From positions 1-34,567 of the forward strand of contig VBEG01000080.1 of NCBI GenBank assembly GCA_005882115.1: DNA of 34,567 nucleotides, in the 5' to 3' direction. Origin of the DNA: Chloroflexota bacterium (lineage in GTDB: Bacteria > Chloroflexota > Dormibacteria > Dormibacterales > Dormibacteraceae). Shown here piece by piece: positions 20,171 to 28,781 of the stretch. Positions within the stretch are counted from its first letter, which is position 1. Each line of letters begins with the position of its first letter. A program made the position numbers and the translations under genes. The notes beneath the pieces were generated by a model, which did not search any database, had not been told where the DNA came from, and saw only the letters and a program-made list of their open reading frames with translations.

Positions 20171-22333
20171 CTACTGGCTCAGAAGTTCGACGATCCGGTC
20201 GGACGTGATCGGCAGCCGGTCGACGACCGCATCAGGCTTTCGCTTGCGGAGCGCGTCTTCCACCGCATTCGAGATCGCGGCCGGCGCGGGGATCGTTCCG
20301 CTCTCGCCCGCGCCCTTGAAGCCTTCGGGGTTGGCGTCGGTCGGGGTCACAATGTGGACGAGCTCGGGTTCGTCGACCTCGCCCGTGCTCACGATGGTGT
20401 AGTCGAGAAAGCTCGCGGCGCGGAATCCGCCGTCAGCGTCATACGTCGCGGCCTCGTACAGGGCGTAGCCGATCCCATGCGCGTAGCCGCCGTGCATCTG
20501 GCCCTCGACGATGAGCTCGTTGATCGCCTGCCCGGTGTCGTGAGCGATCACATAGCGAAGGATCTCGACCTGGCCAGTGTCGGGATCGACCGCGACCACC
20601 GCGACGTGGCAACTGCTCGAGTAGGCGAGCGGCCGCTTGGGATCGAAGGTCTCGAGCACCTCGAGCCCTTCGCTCGGAATCATTTCGGTGATGGGCACCT
20701 TCTTCGACGGCGCGCCACGCACCGCGATCACGCCGTCTTCGATGATCAAATCCGCGGCGTCGGCCTCGAGCACGTCGCCGGCCCGCTCGAGGAGCCGCTT
20801 GCGAACCGCCGTCGCGGCCTTCGAGGTCGCGTTGCCGACCTGGACCGCGCTGCGGCTGCCCGCGGTCAGCTCCGCGGGCGGCGTGTTCTTCGTGTCCGCA
20901 GCGGTGACGCGGATCTTCTCGAACGGCCAGCCGAGCCGATCCGCCGCGACCTGCGCGGCCATCGTCTGGTGCCCCTGGCCCTGCGGGGTCGAACCGATGT
21001 ACAGGTCGGCCGATCCGTTCTTGTTGACGCGCAGCCTGGCCGGCTCGCCGCCGCCGAACCCGGTCGATTCGACGCAGCACGCGACGCCGAAGCCGACGAG
21101 TCGCCAGTCGTCGATATGCTCGGGAATGTCGCCGAGCTTCTGCAGAGCAAGGTCGAGCAGGCGAGGGTAATCGCCGCTGTCGTAGACGAGCCCCGCTCGG
21201 CCCGCTGGAAAACCGGTGGTGAAGGGGATCTGCTCCGGTTGCACCATGTTGCGGCGCCGCAGCTCAACGGGCGAGATGTTGAGGGCGCGCGCGAGGCGAT
21301 CCATCACGCGCTCGGTCGCGTAGTTGCCGAGCGGCCGCCCGCCGCCGCGGATGAACCCGCTCGGCACCGTGTTCGTGTAGATGAGCTGGGTGTCCATGCT
21401 CATGGCGGGCACGATGTAGGCGGAGAGCATGTGGGACACGATGAGGTCGGGCTGGCCGGCGCCCGATCCGCTGTACGCGCCGAGGTCGTGCAGCAACCGT
21501 CCGCGAATGCCGCGCAGCTTGCCATCGTGATCTGAGGCGATTTCGACCTCGATTACGGACCCATGCCCTTGCGCGGTGGTCGAGCCGTCTTCGCTGCGCG
21601 AAGCGACCCACTGCGCCGGCCGCTTCAGACGCCAGGCCGCGAGCGCCGTCAGAATCTCCTCGGGAAACGCGCTGCCCTTGGCGCCAAATCCGCCGCCGAC
21701 GTCCTCGGCGACGACGCGCACACTCTCTTCCTCGAGGCCGAGCGCGCCCGCGATCGCCTCCCGGACGCCGAAGACGCGGGAGGTGGTCAGGCGGATCTGG
21801 GCGGTCACGCTGCCGGGCCCAAACGCTGCTTTGATGTCGCCGTAGGCCCGCGTCTTCTTGCGCGCGATATTGTCGTCCATATCGGCGTGCACTTTCGGCG
21901 CACCGGTTGCCGTGGCCACGACCACGGTGCCGACGCCGTCGAGCGGTTCGAGCTCCGCCGACACCGACTCGGCCGCGTCCTGGGCCTCATAGGCGGTCTC
22001 CGCCACGACCATCGCGTACGCCTCGCCCACGTAGTTGACCTTGTCGCGATTGAGGATCGGGCGCCCGCGCGCGACCATATCGTCCGGTCCCCAGTCGCTC
22101 AGTCCGTCAGCCGTTTCGGGCAGGTCGTGGGCCGTCCAAACCGCGATGACGCCGGGCATCGCTTTCGCAGCCGAAGTGTCGATGGCCCCGATGTGCGCGT
22201 GGGGGAGGCCGGAGCGGCAAAACGCGATGTGGACGAGACCTTCGAGCTTGATGTCCCCTGCGAAGCGACCGCGACCTGTGATCAGTCGCTCGTCCTCGAC
22301 GCGGCGCATGCGCCGGCCGATGTACGGAGGCAT
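20171..22333 (-). CDS. Xanthine dehydrogenase-family molybdopterin-binding large subunit (atypical)
   Basis: 720 residues of the aldehyde/xanthine/CO dehydrogenase large subunit family. Seen: the N-terminal IGRRMRRVEDERLITGRGRFAGD, DVGGGFGAKG, SGFIRGGGRPLGNYATER (the place of AYRGAGRPE of form II enzymes, so not form I CO dehydrogenase), TPQGQGHQT and the C-terminal GAGESGTIPAPAA with the catalytic glutamate. The family is normally about 760-800 long; here the segment between the end of the first barrel and FGVREAIAGALG is some 35 residues short and lacks the usual Q-x-PMEPR element. No FAD or 2Fe-2S subunit lies beside it. The ATG has AGGAG close by. Confidence 0.85.
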   Translation of the reverse strand: MPPYIGRRMRRVEDERLITGRGRFAGDIKLEGLVHIAFCRSGLPHAHIGAIDTSAAKAMPGVIAVWTAHDLPETADGLSDWGPDDMVARGRPILNRDKVNYVGEAYAMVVAETAYEAQDAAESVSAELEPLDGVGTVVVATATGAPKVHADMDDNIARKKTRAYGDIKAAFGPGSVTAQIRLTTSRVFGVREAIAGALGLEEESVRVVAEDVGGGFGAKGSAFPEEILTALAAWRLKRPAQWVASRSEDGSTTAQGHGSVIEVEIASDHDGKLRGIRGRLLHDLGAYSGSGAGQPDLIVSHMLSAYIVPAMSMDTQLIYTNTVPSGFIRGGGRPLGNYATERVMDRLARALNISPVELRRRNMVQPEQIPFTTGFPAGRAGLVYDSGDYPRLLDLALQKLGDIPEHIDDWRLVGFGVACCVESTGFGGGEPARLRVNKNGSADLYIGSTPQGQGHQTMAAQVAADRLGWPFEKIRVTAADTKNTPPAELTAGSRSAVQVGNATSKAATAVRKRLLERAGDVLEADAADLIIEDGVIAVRGAPSKKVPITEMIPSEGLEVLETFDPKRPLAYSSSCHVAVVAVDPDTGQVEILRYVIAHDTGQAINELIVEGQMHGGYAHGIGYALYEAATYDADGGFRAASFLDYTIVSTGEVDEPELVHIVTPTDANPEGFKGAGESGTIPAPAAISNAVEDALRKRKPDAVVDRLPITSDRIVELLSQ

Positions 22334-22368
22334 CGCTCCTACAATAAGTCGTCCACTCAGCCCAACTC

Positions 22369-22388
22369 TCTGGGCGGCTCTGGGCGGC
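22369..22388 (+). repeat. 10-bp tandem duplication at the 5' end of tRNA-Val
   Basis: TCTGGGCGGC occurs twice head-to-tail (22369-22378, 22379-22388); the second copy includes the tRNA acceptor strand GGGCGGC. The extra copy in the leader could pair with the 3' acceptor strand instead. Confidence 0.7.
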
Positions 22389-22457
22389 TAGCTCAGTTGG
22401 TAGAGCGCCAGCTTGACATGCTGGAGGTCGGGGGTTCGAAACCCTCGCCGCCCACCA
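22382..22457 (+). tRNA. tRNA-Val (anticodon GAC)
   Basis: A full cloverleaf: acceptor GGGCGGC/GCCGCCC, D-stem GCTC/GAGC, anticodon stem CCAGC/GCTGG with loop TTGACAT, T-arm GGGGG-TTCGAAA-CCCTC, discriminator A and encoded CCA. TACAAT at 22340-22345 is a possible -10 box. A hairpin of the 3'-end repeat family begins 3 bases after CCA. Confidence 0.95.
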
Positions 22458-22486
22458 ACTCTTCCCCACTTGCGGGGAAGTACCCG
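22458..22486 (+). terminator. Hairpin after tRNA-Val (repeat copy 4)
   Basis: CTTCCCC (22461-22467), a 6-base loop and GGGGAAG (22474-22480) form a perfect 7-bp stem directly after the tRNA, then TACCCG. There is no T run. It is nearly identical to the sequence after ctaD. Confidence 0.6.
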
Positions 22487-22532
22487 CCGAAGGCCTGCAG
22501 CTCCAACGGCCGCAAGTGCGTGTTGAGCCCAC

Positions 22533-23036
22533 CTAGTCTTTTAGCGCCACCCTCCAAGGAACAGCACGCCGGACGGCGTCCGTTACGGGGCAGTGCCGAT
22601 CCGCCGCGTCTACAAGAGCAGCTAGGTCTGCCGGACCTTTCGCTTCGATGCGCACTCGCGCTGTGGAGCTGAGGGGGCCCGCCGGAACCGACTCGTCGAT
22701 GCCCAGGATCCCGTAGTCGTCCGATTCGCTGTCAACGACGACCTCGACCCGGCGAAGCGTGACACCCGCTCGCGCGGCCTCCATTGCAATCAAGCTCGCT
22801 AGACAGCTCGCCTGCGCCGCGCGAAGAAACCATCCCGGCGATGGCAAGTCACCGCGCCCGCCGATCGACTTCGGCATGTCGGTTGTGAGCTGTGCCCCCT
22901 CCGGTCCCGTCACCGTGACCCGCAGGCCGTCTTCGAGCACGGCGGTGGCCGCGCTGTCGGTGTATTTCGCCTCGCTCCGATGCTCGCCCAGGTACTCGAC
23001 AGCTTGGCTCAATGCATCCCTGATGTCAGTTGTCAT
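22533..23036 (-). CDS. OsmC family protein
   Basis: 167 residues. The OsmC/Ohr fold is recognised by PGWFLRAAQASCLASLIAMEAARAG (first conserved cysteine C78) and HCPVTDAVRRAVP (second, C149), with the central VEVVVDSESD strand. Such proteins reduce organic hydroperoxides with a Cys pair; this looks like the OsmC-like branch rather than Ohr proper. It is the second gene of a likely pair, beginning 4 bases after a small cysteine-rich frame on the same strand. Confidence 0.9.
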   Translation of the reverse strand: MTTDIRDALSQAVEYLGEHRSEAKYTDSAATAVLEDGLRVTVTGPEGAQLTTDMPKSIGGRGDLPSPGWFLRAAQASCLASLIAMEAARAGVTLRRVEVVVDSESDDYGILGIDESVPAGPLSSTARVRIEAKGPADLAALVDAADRHCPVTDAVRRAVPWRVALKD

Positions 23037-23040
23037 AGAG

Positions 23041-23187
23041 CTAGCGTAAGTTCCGGACTTTGTCGAGCTCGGTCAGGCAGACGTTGCTATCGCCTAAGGT
23101 GTGGCAATGCACGCATTTCGGTGCCAGACGCGTGTATCGGCGGCGCATGATAGACCCGCTTGGCGCACAACGCGTGCAACGAGGCAT
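23041..23187 (-). CDS. 48-residue four-cysteine zinc-finger-like microprotein
   Basis: The frame runs from ATG 23187 to TAG 23041-23043. It has CxxC at residues 4-7 (CTRC) and CVHCH at 25-29, a basic stretch between them (RRRYTR), another cysteine (C37) and a charged end (LDKVRNLR). Two CxxC knuckles 17 residues apart suggest one zinc site. The CxxCH is unlikely to bind heme because there is no export signal. It ends 4 bases before the OsmC start, so the two are probably co-transcribed. The family is not recognised; no Shine-Dalgarno seen. Confidence 0.5.
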   Translation of the reverse strand: MPRCTRCAPSGSIMRRRYTRLAPKCVHCHTLGDSNVCLTELDKVRNLR

Positions 23188-23237
23188 CAAGCAGCTGGTA
23201 GCCCAAACGGGACGCTATTCGAACTACCTGGACAAAC

Positions 23238-23670
23238 TCAAGGTTCAGACAGACTGGCCTCCTCCTCTGACACTGGTCGCCCCTCAGCAGCGTCAAGACG
23301 GGCAATTGCCATTCGCGTTGCGGCGGCCTCAGTCGTGATGCCCTCCCGATCAGCCGCCGCATAGATCTCGGCCAGGGTGTCTCCAATACCGCGGTGTCGC
23401 ACCTCGATCGTTTCGCGACTCCAACCCAGAGCTTTCAATCCCCACGCATACAACACGCCGCCCGAGTTGATCACGAAGTCGGGGGCATAGAGGATTCCGA
23501 CCGCGCGCAGACGGTCAGCGTCCTGCGGCTCGGCCAACTGGTTGTTCGCACTTCCGGCAACGATGCGACAACGGAGTCGTGGGATCGTGCCGGCGTTCAG
23601 GGACCCACCGAGAGCGCAGGGCGAGTACACGTCGCACATACTTCCGATCGTCTCCTCCCCGGGACCGGTT
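23238..23670 (-). pseudogene. C-terminal remnant of a Leu/Glu/Phe/Val dehydrogenase
   Basis: The frame encodes the last about 140 residues of a leucine-dehydrogenase-type enzyme: CDVYSPCALGGSLNAGTIP, VAGSANNQLAEP and GILYAPDFVINSGG, with a normal C-terminus. Such enzymes are about 350 long, so the first 200 residues (catalytic lysine and most of the NAD domain) are absent. Above about 23670 the same frame continues into unrelated sequence (to 23738). The gene was cut, most likely by the event that left the recombinase tail beside it. Confidence 0.75.
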
Positions 23671-23721
23671 TGGCATCGATCGCAGCGCGCGCAAACGGCG
23701 CAAGCGCCGCGGCCATGGTCG

Positions 23722-23940
23722 ACGAACCTCGTCGACACCTGGGATCAGGCCCCGCCGGCCAGCAAGCGCGGGCTCCTCGCGCACTTCTTCGAGGAGATCG
23801 ACGTCGAGGGCGGGTGGGTCGTCGGCGGCAAGCTTCGACGGGTCCACGCCGACTTGGCGGAGATCGTCGAGCAATATCGTGGGAGTAGCCCCGGCGGGAT
23901 TCGAACCCGCGATCTCAGCCTTGAAAGGGCCGCGTCCTAG
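23722..23940 (+). pseudogene. C-terminal remnant of a probable serine recombinase
   Basis: The frame encodes LVDTWDQAPPASKRGLLAHF, then FEEIDVEGGWVVGG and a helix (HADLAEIVEQY). It resembles the extreme C-terminus of large serine recombinases, where a W...A...R..LL..FE.I.VE.G.IV pattern is usual. Nothing upstream encodes the catalytic or DNA-binding domains. From about 23884 the frame runs through tRNA-Glu on the opposite strand, giving the well-known false GGIRTRDLS peptide. It is a scar of a mobile element next to a tRNA. Confidence 0.55.
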
Positions 23941-23959
23941 GCCACTAGACGACGGGGCC
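23886..23959 (-). tRNA. tRNA-Glu (anticodon TTC)
   Basis: A complete cloverleaf on the minus strand: acceptor GGCCCCG/CGGGGCT, D-stem GTCT/GGAC, anticodon stem CGGCC/GGCTG with loop CTTTCAA, T-arm GCGGG-TTCGAAT-CCCGC, discriminator A. CCA is not encoded, unlike the other two tRNAs here. Its 3' end faces the recombinase remnant. Confidence 0.93.
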
Positions 23960-24029
23960 TCGCTAGAAGTCTAGGTACTCTAGTCGCTGGCCTTGCCTGC
24001 AAGCCCGTGCGGGCTGCCGACCACAGCAA

Positions 24030-24103
24030 GCGGGCGTAGCACAATGGTAGTGCGCCAGCCTTCCAAGCTGGTTACGTGGGTTCGATTCCCATCGCCCGCT
24101 CCA
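24030..24103 (+). tRNA. tRNA-Gly (anticodon TCC)
   Basis: Acceptor GCGGGCG/CGCCCGC, D-stem GCAC/GTGC, anticodon stem CCAGC/GCTGG with loop CTTCCAA, T-arm GTGGG-TTCGATT-CCCAT, discriminator T and encoded CCA. Confidence 0.95.
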
Positions 24104-24154
24104 ACGCATTTGTACGACCGTAACCGTCGAAACGCCCGCGTTGTTGATGGTGTG

Positions 24155-24313
24155 ATGCATTCAGCAAGTCCCGATATCGAAGCCGCGCTGCGACGCCTGC
24201 TCGTCGGCCTCGAGCGGCCCGCCCACCTCGACGAGTGGCGTCAGCGCGGGCGGCTCGCTGAATCAATGGCCGTGTCAGGCGAAGATCGCGAGGAACTTCC
24301 GAAAGCGGCCTGA
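24155..24313 (+). CDS. Hypothetical 52-residue protein
   Basis: A short frame from ATG 24155 to TGA 24311-24313, predicted largely helical (IEAALRRLLVGLERP, LDEWRQRGRLAESM). No known family, signal or membrane part. It is the only coding candidate between tRNA-Gly and the next gene; weak support. Confidence 0.3.
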   Translation: MHSASPDIEAALRRLLVGLERPAHLDEWRQRGRLAESMAVSGEDREELPKAA

Positions 24314-24334
24314 AGCGTCGAGCGCTAGGCGGTG

Positions 24335-24685
24335 TTAGGGCTTGTGAGGTTTCGCCGGAGGCTGGCCGCCGAGCTCCTCAACTCGAGCGTCCCAGTATCC
24401 GAGTCGCTGCCGGAATCTTTCCGCCTGGGCCACCACGACAGGAACGTTGGTCAGCTCGACCTCGCGGCGGCTGGCGGCCGATTGCTTGGTCATCAGATGA
24501 CGGATGCGAGCCAGCACCTTCTCTTCCATGGCAAGGATGTCGGTGTAGATCTGCCTCCAATACAGAGCCTGCTTGATCGACGCGCCGGCTGGGGAAACCT
24601 CACCGTCCATGGGTTGGCTCCAGTCGCCGCCGCGAATGGCGGCATCAACGTCCGGTCGCCCGGACACGGCTATGTCCTTTTTCAT
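24335..24685 (-). CDS. Helical protein related to the N-terminal domain of the 25668-26234 regulator
   Basis: 116 residues, mainly helical. Residues about 36-107 (ALYWRQIYTDILAMEEKVLA ... RFRQRLGYWDARVEELGG) align along their length with the first domain of the winged-helix protein at 25668-26234 (ARHWMSIYADLLEFKRGILG ... GYEARLDLWYRRLWDLHG), sharing the W..IY.D.L, the middle helix break and the terminal Y/W-rich helix. There is no DNA-binding domain here. It could dimerise with or antagonise the full-length paralogue. The function is unknown. Confidence 0.7.
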   Translation of the reverse strand: MKKDIAVSGRPDVDAAIRGGDWSQPMDGEVSPAGASIKQALYWRQIYTDILAMEEKVLARIRHLMTKQSAASRREVELTNVPVVVAQAERFRQRLGYWDARVEELGGQPPAKPHKP

Positions 24686-24740
24686 TCCTCACAAGTACGA
24701 GGGGTGGCATAAAAAGATCAGCAACATTTTCCGTGATAAC

Positions 24741-24774
24741 AAAAAAAGACCCGGCCCCACGAGGGGACCGGGTC
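24741..24774 (-). terminator. Strong intrinsic terminator of the SnoaL-like gene
   Basis: On the minus strand GACCCGGTCCCC-TCG-TGGGGCCGGGTC (one mismatch in the stem) is followed at once by seven T. It begins 15 bases after the SnoaL-like stop codon. It is the only textbook Rho-independent terminator in the window. Confidence 0.92.
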
Positions 24775-24789
24775 GCATGCGTCGGGGGG

Positions 24790-25221
24790 TTAGACCGTCG
24801 TAGTCGCGGGGATCAGACCGAGCTGCTGCAGCTGGTCGAGCTGGTCGAAGTAGATGCGAGCCTCGGCGATCTTTCCGTTCTCCACGCGGAGAAGCTGGAC
24901 GCCGTAGCCGACCACTTTCTTGTAAGTCGGTGCGATCGTGCCCGTCGGGCTCTCTAGAGGGGCCGTGTGCGTGCCCTCCATGACGATCTCCTGGACGACC
25001 CAGGGACCACTGATGAGCTCGCTGCGAACCTTCATCTTGTTGTCCGGGAACGCCTTAAGCCAGGTCATCGCGAATTTGGTCGCGTCCTTGCCGTTGGTGG
25101 CCTTGAAGCCGCCCGGCGCGTTGAACTTGATGTCGTCAGCGTGAAGGGCATCCAGAGCCTTCTCGTCGTGCGCGTTCATCGCGGCTACGAAGCGGTCGGT
25201 TGTCTCTTTGACTTCAGGCAT
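24790..25221 (-). CDS. SnoaL-like / NTF2-fold protein (ester cyclase-like)
   Basis: 143 residues from ATG 25221, chosen because AGGAGGAG lies 5 bases upstream; an 18-residue longer reading exists but has no ribosome site. NTF2-like features: FVAAMNAHDEKALDALHADD (N-terminal helix pair), a conserved FNAPGGF loop, TWLKAFPDNKMKV, and beta strands with EGTHTAP and GVQLLRVENGKIAEARIYFDQ. This fold includes polyketide cyclases, isomerases and many proteins of unknown use. It has a structured leader of about 105 bases and its own terminator, so it is a single-gene unit, probably well expressed. Confidence 0.85.
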   Translation of the reverse strand: MPEVKETTDRFVAAMNAHDEKALDALHADDIKFNAPGGFKATNGKDATKFAMTWLKAFPDNKMKVRSELISGPWVVQEIVMEGTHTAPLESPTGTIAPTYKKVVGYGVQLLRVENGKIAEARIYFDQLDQLQQLGLIPATTTV

Positions 25222-25240
25222 TGTCTCCTCCTGGGAGTGT

Positions 25241-25312
25241 CCGCGAAGCGGAAGGGCCAAGTGGGCTACTGCCATCGTCGGCCGGCAACCGCGAGGGTCT
25301 CACTGCCCTCGC
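25241..25312 (-). promoter_or_regulatory. Structured 5' leader of the SnoaL-like gene
   Basis: Two hairpins lie between a possible -10 box TATAGT (25334-25339, minus) and the ribosome site: GCGAGGG/CCCTCGC (25291-25312, 7 bp, 8-base loop) and CCGC-GAA-GCGG (25241-25251). No known riboswitch class is recognised. Confidence 0.4.
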
Positions 25313-25370
25313 CTCAGTCCAGGAACAATCGCCACTATACCACGAAATGGTTGCGGCGGCGCGCTAATAT

Positions 25371-25664
25371 TTGGGGATCGAACGCTCCCGACTTCTGTCC
25401 GTCCCTGAGGCTGCTGCCGAGCTACACGCATCGGAGGCTTACGTGCGCCGACTGCTCCTGAGGCAGCGGCTGTACGGAATCAAGGTGGGTCCGGTTTGGG
25501 CAATTTTTTCCGATGACCTGCACGCCTTCGAGCGCACGCGCCGCCCTCCTGGCCGGCCACGCAAGCGAACGGACTCCGCGCCCGACCGCGCATCGAAAGC
25601 ACGCATGGTCACCGAACGCAAACAGGCCGGCACGGACCGTCTCCTCAGAAAGCGAGGGCGCTGA
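25371..25664 (+). CDS. Small helix-turn-helix (excisionase/MerR-like) DNA-binding protein
   Basis: 97 residues. LLSVPEAAAELHASEAYVRRLLLRQRLYGIKVGPVWAIFSDDL is the excisionase-type winged HTH (key positions: VPEAA, S/YVRRLL, GIKVG, W). A basic, disordered tail follows (RRPPGRPRKRT, with an AT-hook-like GRPRK). The TTG 25371 start is weak, because TAATAT directly precedes it; a CTG just downstream is possible. It could be a lone regulator or a leftover of a mobile element. It is convergent with the winged-helix gene, 3 bases apart. Confidence 0.7.
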   Translation: MGIERSRLLSVPEAAAELHASEAYVRRLLLRQRLYGIKVGPVWAIFSDDLHAFERTRRPPGRPRKRTDSAPDRASKARMVTERKQAGTDRLLRKRGR

Positions 25665-25667
25665 GCC

Positions 25668-26234
25668 TCACTCGGCGCGGAAGACGAGCGAGTAGCCCCG
25701 AGCGGGCTTGTTGACCAGGTCAACCGGGATTTCCAGGTCTCTGAGGATCGTGCGGAGGCGGCGCACGTAGTTGCGTACCTCTTCGGGAAACAGGGCCGGT
25801 TCGACCCATGCCTGGTTCAGGATCTGCTGGGCGGTGTAGTACCTGTGCGGATGATCGAGAAGGAACTGAAGCAGCTGGAACTCGCGTTTCGTGAGGGCAG
25901 CCTCGCGGCCCTTGTGCCGGACCATGCGACCGGCCGGATCAAGCCACAAGCCGTGTAGATCCCAGAGCCGGCGGTACCAGAGATCCAGGCGCGCCTCGTA
26001 GCCCCGCATCTGCGCTTCGATGATTTCAAGATCAGCGGCCGCGGCCTTCTGTGCCAGAGGCAGCAGATTGGATAAGTCGCGCTTCACCCGGCCCAGGATG
26101 CCCCGCTTGAACTCGAGCAGGTCGGCGTAGATGCTCATCCAATGACGGGCATCCTCCCAGCGTGTCGTCTCGAGGTCCTCACCCTCGAGCGGCCGCGACG
26201 GGCGTACGGGGTCCTCACCTTCCCCAACCGTCAT
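25668..26234 (-). CDS. Winged-helix regulator with N-terminal helical domain
   Basis: 188 residues. A helical domain (about 20-95) precedes an OmpR/PhoB-type winged helix (about 96-188; LTKREFQLLQFLLDHPHRYY, AQQILNQAWVEPALFPEEVRNYVRRLRTILRD shown by key parts, and NKPARGYSLVF). There is no receiver domain, so it is not a classical response regulator; the N-terminal domain probably does dimerisation or sensing. The same domain occurs alone at 24335-24685. GGCGAGAG before the ATG may serve as ribosome site. Confidence 0.85.
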   Translation of the reverse strand: MTVGEGEDPVRPSRPLEGEDLETTRWEDARHWMSIYADLLEFKRGILGRVKRDLSNLLPLAQKAAAADLEIIEAQMRGYEARLDLWYRRLWDLHGLWLDPAGRMVRHKGREAALTKREFQLLQFLLDHPHRYYTAQQILNQAWVEPALFPEEVRNYVRRLRTILRDLEIPVDLVNKPARGYSLVFRAE

Positions 26235-26318
26235 CTCTCGCCTATTCAGGAAATTCCTATCACGAGGGGAATGGCTGCTTCAAGGTGCAGGGAGGCTTGA
26301 GTACGCGCTCCGACCGCT

Positions 26319-27671
26319 CTAGGTCGTGGAGAGGAAGACGTTCTTCAGCTCGGTGTAGTGGTCGAGCGCGTTCGGTCCGAGCTCGCGTCCGATCCCCGAC
26401 TGCTTGAATCCTCCAAACGGCGTGGTCACACGCACCGAGGTGTTGGAGTTGATCGAGATCGTCCCGGTTTCCAGCGCGCGGGCGACGCGCATCGCGCGTC
26501 CGGCGTTGTTCGTCCAGATCGAGCCCGAGAGTCCGTAGACGGTGTCGTTGGCGATCCGGATCGCGTCGGCCTCGTCGGAAAACGGGATCACCGCGACGAT
26601 CGGTCCGAAGATCTCCTCGCGCGCCGCGCGGTCGGTCGGCCCCACCGGCGATAGCACGGTCGGCGGGAACCAGAAGCCCGCGCCGCTCGGCGCGCTGCCT
26701 CGGATGGCCACCTTCGCCCCGTCCTCCAAATATGTGGCGACCTTGGAGCGGTGGTCGGCGGAGATGAGCGGACCCATCTCTGTCTTCTCGTCCATCGGGT
26801 CGCCGACGCGCAGCTTCTTGATCGCGATCTCCAGCGCCTGCATGAAGCGTTCGACCACCGAGCGCTCGACCAGGATGCGCGAGCGAGCGCAGCAGTCCTG
26901 GCCGGCGTTGCCGAACACCGCGCCCGGCGCGGAAGCCGCGGCCCTGTCGATGTCTGCGTCCGCGAACACGATGTTGGCCGACTTGCCTCCCAGCTCGAGC
27001 GTCACCCGCTTGATCGAGTCCGCAGCCAGCGCGCCGATCCGCCGTCCCACTTCGGTCGACCCGGTGAACGCAACCTTGGCCACGTCGGGGTGCTGCACCA
27101 GGCGCTCGCCGACCGTGCGCCCCGCCCCGACCACGATGTTGAACACCCCCTCCGGAATGCCGGCAAGCAGCGCGAGCCGCTCCAGCTCCAGGGCGGTCAT
27201 CGGCGTCAGGGCCGCGGGTTTCAGGACGACGGTGTTGCCGGCGGCCAGGGCCGGCCCGAGCTTCCACGACGTGATCGCGATCGGGAAGTTCCACGGCACG
27301 ATGAGCGCCACCACGCCGAGCGGCTCGCGGAACGTCATGTCGACGCCGCCCGCGACCGGGATCGTGTTCCCCAGCAGGCGCTCGGGCGCCCCCGCGTAGT
27401 AGTTGAAGACGTCGACGACCATCCCGACCTCGCCACGCGCGTCGCTGATCGGCTTGCCTACGTTGCGGGCCTCGAGCTCGGCGAGCTTGCCGGCGTCGTC
27501 GGCGACGGCGTTGGCGAAGCGGCGCAGCAGCTTGGCGCGGTCGCCAGGGCTGACGGCGCGCCACGCGGGATAGGCGGCTTTGGCGCGGGCGACGGCGCGG
27601 TCGGCGTCCTCGACGCTCGCTTCCGCGACCTCGGCGAGGACCTTCTCGGTGGCCGGCTCGATCACTCTCAT
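26319..27671 (-). CDS. NAD(P)-dependent aldehyde dehydrogenase
   Basis: A 450-residue ALDH superfamily enzyme, slightly shorter than the usual 475-500 because its N-terminus begins near VIEPATEKVLAEV. Active-site parts: N128 (PWNFP), K151 (LKPA), E226 (LELGGKS) and the nucleophile C260 (GNAGQDCCARSR), plus EEIFGPIV and PFGGFKQSGIGRELG. Sequence style is betaine/aminobutyraldehyde-like, but the substrate cannot be named. A single gene. Confidence 0.95.
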   Translation of the reverse strand: MRVIEPATEKVLAEVAEASVEDADRAVARAKAAYPAWRAVSPGDRAKLLRRFANAVADDAGKLAELEARNVGKPISDARGEVGMVVDVFNYYAGAPERLLGNTIPVAGGVDMTFREPLGVVALIVPWNFPIAITSWKLGPALAAGNTVVLKPAALTPMTALELERLALLAGIPEGVFNIVVGAGRTVGERLVQHPDVAKVAFTGSTEVGRRIGALAADSIKRVTLELGGKSANIVFADADIDRAAASAPGAVFGNAGQDCCARSRILVERSVVERFMQALEIAIKKLRVGDPMDEKTEMGPLISADHRSKVATYLEDGAKVAIRGSAPSGAGFWFPPTVLSPVGPTDRAAREEIFGPIVAVIPFSDEADAIRIANDTVYGLSGSIWTNNAGRAMRVARALETGTISINSNTSVRVTTPFGGFKQSGIGRELGPNALDHYTELKNVFLSTT

Positions 27672-27752
27672 GGCGCAGCTAAAGATAGTCCGGCCTCAAA
27701 ACTCTCACCTGAATCCAAGCCTGCTCTGAGGTTCAGCCCAGATGATCGGGGC

Positions 27753-28121
27753 ATGGATAGAACCCGAGTCCTTGTCTTTGCGTCTGTCGTCGCCGCGGCG
27801 ATGGTCTTCGGTGGAATCGTCGGGGCGACGGCATTCGCGGGGGCGACCCTGACGCCGGCAATCGCCGCCCTCACCGCCACGTCGCCGTCGCCGACCCCCA
27901 AGTCCAACGAGTCCGCGACGCACGAAGCCGGGGAGAGCGCCGCCCAGGAAGCGGCCGAAAACAACGGCACGGCCCGCCTTGGCGGCCACGGCGGCCACCC
28001 TTGTGGCGGCCACTCCAACGAAGACGCGGCCCACGAGAAGACCGAGACGGCGGCCCAGGAAGCGGCCGAGAACGCGGCGTGTCCCACGCCACCGCCGAGC
28101 GCGACAGCCACGAACCAATAG
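27753..28121 (+). CDS. Secreted or anchored His/Gly repeat protein
   Basis: 122 residues. An N-terminal hydrophobic segment (about 6-40) acts as signal or anchor, followed by a SPSPTP linker. A 15-residue unit occurs twice: THEAGESAAQEAAEN (56-70) and AHEKTETAAQEAAEN (93-107). Between them lies GGHGGHPCGGH (77-87), a possible metal site; two cysteines (C84, C110) could form a disulfide. It ends in a Pro/Ser/Thr tail. The family is not recognised. Metal (Cu, Zn, Ni) binding outside the membrane is a reasonable guess only. Confidence 0.7.
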   Translation: MDRTRVLVFASVVAAAMVFGGIVGATAFAGATLTPAIAALTATSPSPTPKSNESATHEAGESAAQEAAENNGTARLGGHGGHPCGGHSNEDAAHEKTETAAQEAAENAACPTPPPSATATNQ

Positions 28122-28142
28122 CGCCTCGCTAATCTCGACCAT

Positions 28143-28781
28143 GTGAGCTCGGGCACCCGGGTGTACCTCGAGGTCGGCGGCAAGCGCGTCTTCGCGAGTG
28201 CCGCCGACTGGCCCGGGTGGTGCCGCTCCGGCAAGGACGAGGCATCGGCGCTCAAAGAGCTCGCCGAATACGCGCCTCGCTACGCCAAGGTCGCGAAGCT
28301 GGCGCGGGCAGAGTTTCCCAAAGACCCGACCAACTTCAACGTAATCGAGCGAATGAAGGGCAACGCCACGACCGACTTCGGCGCGCCCGGGGTCCCGGCG
28401 AAGGACGAGTCGAACCCGCTGACCACGCGGGAGACTGAGCGCATGGCATCGCTCGTGGAGGCGTGCTGGAAGTACCTCGACCAGGTGCGAGCCCAGGCGC
28501 CGGCGTCACTCCAGAAGGGACCGCGTGGCGGCGGCCGGGATCGCGACAAGATGTTCGAGCATGTCCTCGCGGCCGAAGTCGAGTACGCGAAGAAGATCGG
28601 CCTGCATGAGAAGCAACCGGCCTGGAATGACCCCGCCGCGATCAAGGGCTTTCGGATCAGCCTCAGCGCTGGCTTTCGCGATTCCTACCGGGAGGAGAAG
28701 TGGCCCGTGCCATACGCGGCGCGGCGCACCGCGTGGCACGCGCTCGACCACGCGTGGGAGATGGAAGACCGCATACCCTAG
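28143..28781 (+). CDS. DinB-like helical protein
   Basis: 212 residues from GTG 28143. The N-terminal VYLEVGGKRVFASAADWPGWCRSGK resembles a HicB-like strand region found before DinB-like domains in actinobacterial proteins; then a helical bundle with histidines at spaced positions (MFEHVLAAE, AWHALDHAWEMEDR). DinB-fold proteins are often metal-dependent thiol transferases. TAATCT lies 7 bases before GTG, so it is perhaps leaderless. It ends 7 bases before the PIG-L gene, which suggests an operon and, loosely, thiol (mycothiol/bacillithiol-type) chemistry. Confidence 0.7.
   Translation: MSSGTRVYLEVGGKRVFASAADWPGWCRSGKDEASALKELAEYAPRYAKVAKLARAEFPKDPTNFNVIERMKGNATTDFGAPGVPAKDESNPLTTRETERMASLVEACWKYLDQVRAQAPASLQKGPRGGGRDRDKMFEHVLAAEVEYAKKIGLHEKQPAWNDPAAIKGFRISLSAGFRDSYREEKWPVPYAARRTAWHALDHAWEMEDRIP

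Follow-up and report, generated by a model that had tools for sequence, protein, structure and literature searches.

The S and R genes and their common hairpin domain

The window (the whole stretch of DNA analysed, 34,567 nucleotides) is contig C48 of a source genome of 3.36 Mb in 147 contigs. It carries two minus-strand genes, here called S and R, for which the coordinates given in a first-pass annotation of the sequence were correct. The features discussed below are as follows.

24335–24685, minus strand: S, stand-alone hairpin-domain protein of 116 residues, ATG start (open reading frame; relatives)
24374–24577, minus strand: hairpin domain of S, residues 37–104, helices 37–65 and 70–104 (AlphaFold)
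24692–24697, minus strand: predicted -10 hexamer TACTTG, 10 bp past the box (inferred from the site profile)
24708–24725, minus strand: box GTTGCTG-ATCT-TTTTATG upstream of S, predicted R operator (intergenic alignment, fixed spacing)
24748–24774, minus strand: terminator-like 11-bp stem and T run after the SnoaL-like gene, separating it from S
24790–25221, minus strand: SnoaL-like gene between R and S, alternative ATG at 25275 (PF07366, E 2.3e-23)
25371–25664, plus strand: small HTH_17-like protein, divergent from the SnoaL-like gene and convergent with R (PF12728, E 8.5e-5)
25668–26234, minus strand: R, 188 residues, ATG start, hairpin and OmpR-type winged helix, no receiver (open reading frame, Pfam, AlphaFold)
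25680–25946, minus strand: winged helix of R, residues 97–185 (PF00486 at residues 109–183; Foldseek; helix conservation)
within 25680–25946, minus strand: recognition-helix region of R, LFPEEVRNYVRR (conservation of the helix)
25956–26159, minus strand: hairpin domain of R, residues 26–93 (AlphaFold; homology to S)

S and R share one homologous helical-hairpin domain, as the first-pass annotation had proposed from an alignment of the two proteins. In a single BLASTP comparison residues 23–107 of S matched residues 13–95 of R with 24% identity and 49% positives (33.1 bits, E 3e-7). When profile A2, built from 15 rows of the S clade only, was aligned by hhalign with the R profile A4 (35 rows), the match had a probability of 98.7 and an E value of 2.5e-16. 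A stronger value obtained with profile A3 was set aside because A3 contains two R-domain rows. Among 11,110 open reading frames, an HMM built from 16 winged-helix-bearing copies found S at E 5.4e-14 and one built from 17 stand-alone copies found R at E 2.4e-19, with no match of either HMM to reversed-ORF decoys at E ≤ 10. AlphaFold predicted the same fold for both, a hairpin of 29 + 4 + 35 residues (S 37–65/70–104, R 26–54/59–93), with a mean pLDDT of 81 for S, about 91–96 within its helices, and of 86.6 for R. The outcome named in the first-pass annotation as counting against the proposal, a lack of profile similarity together with differing folds, thus did not occur. The motifs W-x3-Y, RL-x2-W-x2-R and GE[DN]P are common to the two proteins, and W43, Y47, E54, E75, E77, P82, F91, R94 and W98 are invariant across the S clade. 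The OmpR-type winged helix is present in R and absent from S, in line with the original description (PF00486, Trans_reg_C, E 1.6e-12, 47.7 bits against a cut-off of 26.2); Foldseek matched it to CadC, AdeR, CovR and PhoB, all at E ≤ 2e-4. The Pfam search of R for the receiver PF00072 gave no match at E ≤ 1, and the model places the two-helix hairpin at the position of the receiver.

An iterated profile started from the S and R segments collected 87 copies of the domain over 42 loci, with the core L-x-G-E-[DN]-P ... D-A-R-H-W-x3-Y ... R-L-x2-W-x2-R ... L-x-G. In the loci examined the domain occurs either alone or with a winged helix, and with nothing else. When 33 diverse members were scanned, no Pfam or NCBIfam family exceeded its curated cut-off; matches below the cut-off at E ≤ 0.1 involved 17 Pfam and 8 NCBIfam families (best E 0.0014), nearly all of them matched by one member and one Pfam family by three. 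Judged by sequence, the hairpin domain is thus new to the family libraries searched (Pfam and NCBIfam), which bears out the earlier suggestion of a new domain without a receiver. A PDB sequence search with the domain profile returned a designed protein (E 0.2) as its sole match, and Foldseek with S gave no fold match at E ≤ 0.001. VIA-align with S returned many hairpins at Z 8–9 (the seryl-tRNA synthetase arm, EsxA/EsxB, the PadR helical domain and others), from which no family was assigned since these scores are below the level that the tool treats as meaningful for helical folds. WXG100/ESAT-6 proteins carry a W-x-G motif in the turn of their hairpin, whereas the turn of S (residues 66–69) reads TKQS and S has no W-x-G. 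SARP regulators have an N-terminal winged helix followed by the BTAD helical domain; R has the opposite order, and its helical part consists of a single hairpin of 68 residues.

The first-pass annotation had placed a single SnoaL-like gene with a structured leader between S and R. Two genes lie there, the SnoaL-like gene and, on the other strand, the HTH_17-like gene, the latter scoring 23.2 bits and thus under the Pfam cut-off of 27. The leader proved not unusually structured (z = -0.52, 54 of 200 shuffles folding at least as stably), and an Rfam search of 22000–28500 found nothing but tRNAs above threshold. The two genes form a divergent pair in all three loci that have them (window 24790–25664, L118 and L136) and are probably an independent module. 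From the strong terminator-like hairpin past the SnoaL-like gene and the presence of a box of its own ahead of S, it follows that R, the SnoaL-like gene and S are probably not one operon. Three tRNA genes lie near S (22382–22454, 23886–23959 and 24030–24100), and the stretch 23238–23738 partially matches the Glu/Leu/Phe/Val dehydrogenase profile; together they possibly mark a rearrangement junction.

Distribution, descent and gene neighbourhoods

The domain was found in 37 of the 400 genomes of a phylum sample, all of them in the window's own class, which record titles name as Ca. Dormibacterota, and in three of its families; in most genomes only 13 candidates were scored, so that absences are soft. 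The S signature was sought in the species genomes of GTDB r220, where 53 stretches fit the pattern and 45 were confirmed as loci. Of these, 44 come from records labelled Chloroflexi or Ca. Dormi(i)bacter(ae)ota; the remaining one, L145, is labelled Acidimicrobiaceae. At L145, S and a truncated R lie on a contig of an Acidimicrobiaceae MAG, by transfer or misbinning. In viral contigs none of 34 pattern stretches encoded a relative of the domain. Close relatives of S (E ≤ 1e-22) were present in 29 of 110 genomes of the class, with up to four copies per genome.

In a tree of 113 domain copies, which has few columns and many open forks, the S clade (51 rows) and the close-R clade (27 rows) had SH-aLRT values of 95 and 99, respectively. 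This tree needs four changes of architecture, against a mean of about 37 with shuffled labels. The separate clades and the small number of changes argue that S is no recent truncation of R; on the sequence evidence the two are old sister families and not truncation products. Response regulators with receiver and winged helix were seen beside or near R at L074:7168-7911, L084:1089-1886, L086:6836-7585 and L088:1459-2073, the first two supported by Pfam and the last two by similarity. Their winged helix resembles that of R, and R may therefore derive from such a protein by a swap of the receiver for the hairpin. Another contig of the window's own genome (C123; L072:7731-15312) carries a distant set within 8 kb, made up of an R-like gene, a damaged or diverged stand-alone copy and an S-like gene. 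By eye, its neighbours are CheB/CheR-like, LuxR-type and PAS/GAF kinase-like genes; the S-like gene begins 32 bp past a Y-family DNA polymerase-like gene, an order that recurs in L110–L112.

The free protein is encoded one or two genes from the DNA-binding one. A survey of gene neighbourhoods, as the first-pass annotation had recommended, covered 32 close-S loci (L118–L149), and in 28 of these R or a remnant of it lies near S. Among the 28, which were counted by eye, R is broken or truncated in five (L121, L122, L127, L131, L145) and runs into a sequence gap or the end of a contig in two (L118, L126). Arrangements were measured for 28 pairs, which take in the window, L074, L091 and L092 and exclude three of 31 loci (L118, L122, L126) that yielded no pair under the filters used. 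They comprise tandem R>S (window, L119, L120, L123, L125 and others), tandem S>R (L091, L092, L140, L133), many divergent pairs (the L137–L149 group, L121, L127, L130, L131) and one convergent pair (L074). The pairing recurs in distant subfamilies (L097, L098, L100, L101, L107), and distant stand-alone relatives also adjoin R-type and signalling genes. Among 150 domain copies, drawn from the 37 genomes of the phylum sample and an incomplete list for 13 others, 62 had another copy within 1.5 kb where 0.7 would be expected at random; this count, like those of box and S below, rests on hand-collated coordinates, and genes were called with a simple in-house script and no published gene finder. In the 28 adjacent S-R pairs the distances were correlated (mirror-tree r 0.64, reached by 0 of 2000 free shuffles), a value that also reflects species descent. 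Partner specificity of S and R was not upheld by the mirror-tree, within-genome partner swaps in two multi-pair genomes ranking the actual pairing 7 of 48.

A stress-type gene lies within 3 kb of S in 27 of the 32 loci, where the set (YggT-like, ice-binding, GlsB-type, CsbD, LapA, DUF6131, Hsp20) was chosen after the neighbourhoods had been viewed. In 61 genomes, a domain copy lay within 3 kb of 10 of 49 CsbD matches (0.5 expected) and of 7 of 39 ice-binding matches (0.35 expected). The window's own genome has no CsbD and no ice-binding match, and the closest stress-type gene to S in the window is OsmC-like (22533–23036, minus strand, PF02566 E 1.3e-12). S is often the first in a series of genes on one strand that includes CsbD, ice-binding or YggT-like genes. 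Cassettes of S and CsbD retain S with a broken R (L121, L122, L127, L131) or without R (L124, L128, L129), and S may accordingly act without a local R. In the same four broken-R loci and in L145, R is broken or internally deleted beside an intact S; the several copies per genome and the many nearby contig ends suggest recent duplication or transfer there. An OmpR-type response regulator and a histidine-kinase-like gene lie upstream of R-S in L119, L120, L123 and L134.

The 18-bp box upstream of S

Alignment of the R/S intergenic sequences of 14 divergent loci revealed one sharply bounded block ahead of S, with the consensus GTTRCTG-ANNT-TNTTAYG, 10 bp before a predicted -10 element. With up to two mismatches the box has 58 sites in 1.15 Mb of loci, a number that contains duplicates since L073–L112 and L118–L162 share contigs; the class-wide counts below are free of duplicates. 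It lies mostly 134–138 nt ahead of the S domain, about 22 nt ahead of the ATG. A mismatch-free search of 61 genomes found sites in 16 of them. The 40 distinct sites precede S, ice-binding, YggT-like, c89-type, response-regulator, CsbD and a few other genes, and several have no convincing gene downstream. Their profile reads [TA]GTTRCTG-ANNT-TNTTAYG, with A at +29 (37 of the 40 sites) and T at +33 (26 of the 40), positions that would fit A-11 and T-7 of a -10 hexamer. With the -10 hexamer so placed, transcription of S would begin at the first base of its ATG, near 24685, and a leaderless S message of this kind would explain the fixed spacing between box and S. A scan with the sigma-70 consensus gave no promoter-like site.

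Across the 110 genomes of the class, the box together with A at +29 occurred 87 times in 30 genomes, and the backward-read control gave 0 sites. It lies directly upstream (<120 nt) of 35 of 42 S copies. Sites not belonging to S numbered 43 in the 29 genomes with S as against 9 in the 81 genomes without. Both box and S were present in 23 genomes, the box only in 7, S only in 6 and neither in 74 (Fisher 2e-12, a P value that, like others for this co-occurrence, ignores shared descent); all S counts refer to close S, and the six S-only genomes lack the full box pattern. Genomes with a box site and no close S include G028, G036 and G046. The window's own genome has a single convincing box, the one ahead of S; three further sites, each with three mismatches, equal the control in number.

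The box has a 7-4-7 layout and spans about -40 to -23. As direct repeats its two heptads are weakly alike, with an average of 2.65 identical positions out of 7. For binding of the OmpR/PhoB type, direct repeats of about 7 bp would be expected 11 bp apart. Members of this family occupy direct repeats as tandem dimers, and PhoP requires motifs of 7 bp separated by a 4-bp spacer (PMC4832192). The E. coli pho box lies near the -10 element and substitutes for the -35 (PMC4971064). The predicted site would resemble these systems in its 7-4-7 geometry at the -35 position, and R resembles PhoB and PhoP in its PF00486 winged helix, with Foldseek matches to PhoB, AdeR and CadC; R differs from them in having a class-specific helical hairpin instead of a receiver. 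The recognition-helix segment LFPEEVRNYVRR is kept in R of close-S loci and differs in other winged-helix subfamilies. Taken with the 7-4-7 layout, this conservation makes R the best candidate for the protein that binds the box.

A coding origin of the box, as a leader peptide or N-terminal extension with LL(I/N/T)FL ahead of S, was rejected as a general explanation: the box precedes CsbD, YggT-like, ice-binding and response-regulator genes at other spacings and in other frames, the -10-like A stands at a fixed distance, and in the window a stop codon interrupts the LL(I/N/T)FL frame right before the ATG of S. A family of small proteins of 82–84 residues, c89 (M/VQAAFxAxVLxQVAxEIxNIKVEYRG), has the box about 23 nt before its start at L196, L182 and L201 and is a further candidate target.

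A proposed S-R circuit and its alternatives

The presence of the box ahead of S and of cold- and osmotic-stress genes suggests a feedback-controlled S-R stress switch. In the favoured reading, to which we assign a probability of roughly 0.45, S and R would be two halves of a stress circuit of Ca. Dormibacterota. R would act as receptor and effector in one, its hairpin replacing the receiver of an OmpR/PhoB-type regulator. Its winged helices would sit head-to-tail on the 18-bp box and bring RNA polymerase to promoters that have their -10 element 10 bp beyond the box. The most conserved target would be the S gene, upstream of which the box is observed. Since S is a free copy of the hairpin of R, its simplest mode of action would be hairpin pairing, and the two hairpins would most likely form a four-helix bundle. 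Rising S would then limit or reset R as a feedback antagonist, much as SinI does toward SinR. Where genomes have them, ice-binding, YggT-like, CsbD, response-regulator and further hairpin genes may be other targets. A more specific form of the circuit, with a signalling domain used across the class, a leaderless S message, a receiver-less activator reset by homotypic hairpin exchange and an ice-binding/osmotic-stress regulon governed via the box, is put forward tentatively and is less probable. Two observations weigh most against the circuit: S-CsbD cassettes persist where the neighbouring R is broken or absent, and a second convincing box is missing from the window's own genome.

Chance or generic coiled-coil likeness of unrelated hairpins would be another explanation of the similarity between S and R, given that two-helix hairpins are generic, that Foldseek found no PDB match below E 1 and that all VIA-align rows stayed below the meaningful level. 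Reciprocal profile detection (5e-14 and 2e-19, no decoy matches) refutes it, the common motifs argue against it, and we regard it as practically excluded. A rather unlikely alternative casts S as an effector of the stress response. S would then be a small protective protein of helical build, comparable to CsbD, which is co-regulated by R without pairing with it and shares its domain by common descent, for instance for a shared ligand. The frequent first place of S in runs with CsbD, ice-binding and YggT-like genes, the persistence of S-CsbD cassettes where R is broken or absent, and the up to four close S copies in a genome would all fit such a role, and S and CsbD are alike as small helical proteins encoded in the same cassettes. 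However, the homology of S is to a regulator's signalling half and not to CsbD (PF05532 was absent in the Pfam scans), its domain was found alone or with a winged helix only in the loci examined, R or its remnant stays near S through varying arrangements in 28 of 32 loci, and distant stand-alone relatives adjoin R-type and signalling genes too.

The box could also belong to another factor, an alternative sigma or one of the nearby response regulators, with R regulating something else. The response-regulator and kinase-like genes preceding R-S in four loci, the boxes ahead of response-regulator genes and the genomes G028, G036 and G046, with box and without close S, speak for this. Yet an 18-bp 7-4-7 box at about -40 to -23 is the footprint one would expect of an OmpR/PhoB-type dimer and not of a sigma alone, and the distribution of the box tracks S; we consider this explanation improbable. 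Still more improbable, in our view, is that S serves as co-activator or sensor, forming a hetero-oligomer with R or signalling to it, so that S is needed for activation. The same domain, the adjacency and the co-distribution would be expected here as well, and the invariant residues of the S clade point to a specific surface or a site for a ligand, but the best-conserved target of the box is S itself, as would sooner be expected of a feedback loop.

Of the first-pass proposal that S and R are a regulator and its matching partner, the common domain stands and the partnership remains a conditional reading, which has gained adjacency through several arrangements and a box common to S and stress genes; it is now more likely and more specific. 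SinR is a repressor with an N-terminal helix-turn-helix, and it shares a homologous helical domain with SinI. Like SinI, S is a small protein homologous to the helical domain of a nearby DNA-binding regulator; unlike SinR, R has an N-terminal hairpin and a C-terminal OmpR-type winged helix and no SinR-type N-terminal helix-turn-helix. Pfam scans of the window proteins and the domain members gave no sequence match to Sin proteins. In Bacillus subtilis the regulator and its small antagonist are encoded in one operon, and binding of SinI splits the SinR tetramer into a SinI:SinR heterodimer and displaces the DNA (PMC6123443).

All Dormibacterota records found were metagenome-assembled, and our literature search returned nothing on stress-gene regulation in the group and nothing on winged-helix/hairpin proteins, the search on ice-binding, Dormibacterota and CsbD giving unrelated work alone. 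Dormibacterota are an uncultured group that is abundant in soils. For these bacteria, the analysis offers a concrete circuit, made up of an OmpR-type regulator lacking a receiver, the free paralogue of that regulator, the new domain family that unites them, and a promoter box with predicted targets, the parts of which are amenable to in vitro tests via short synthetic genes. If true, the circuit would mean that the SinI/SinR principle arose a second time, independently and with a different DNA-binding fold.
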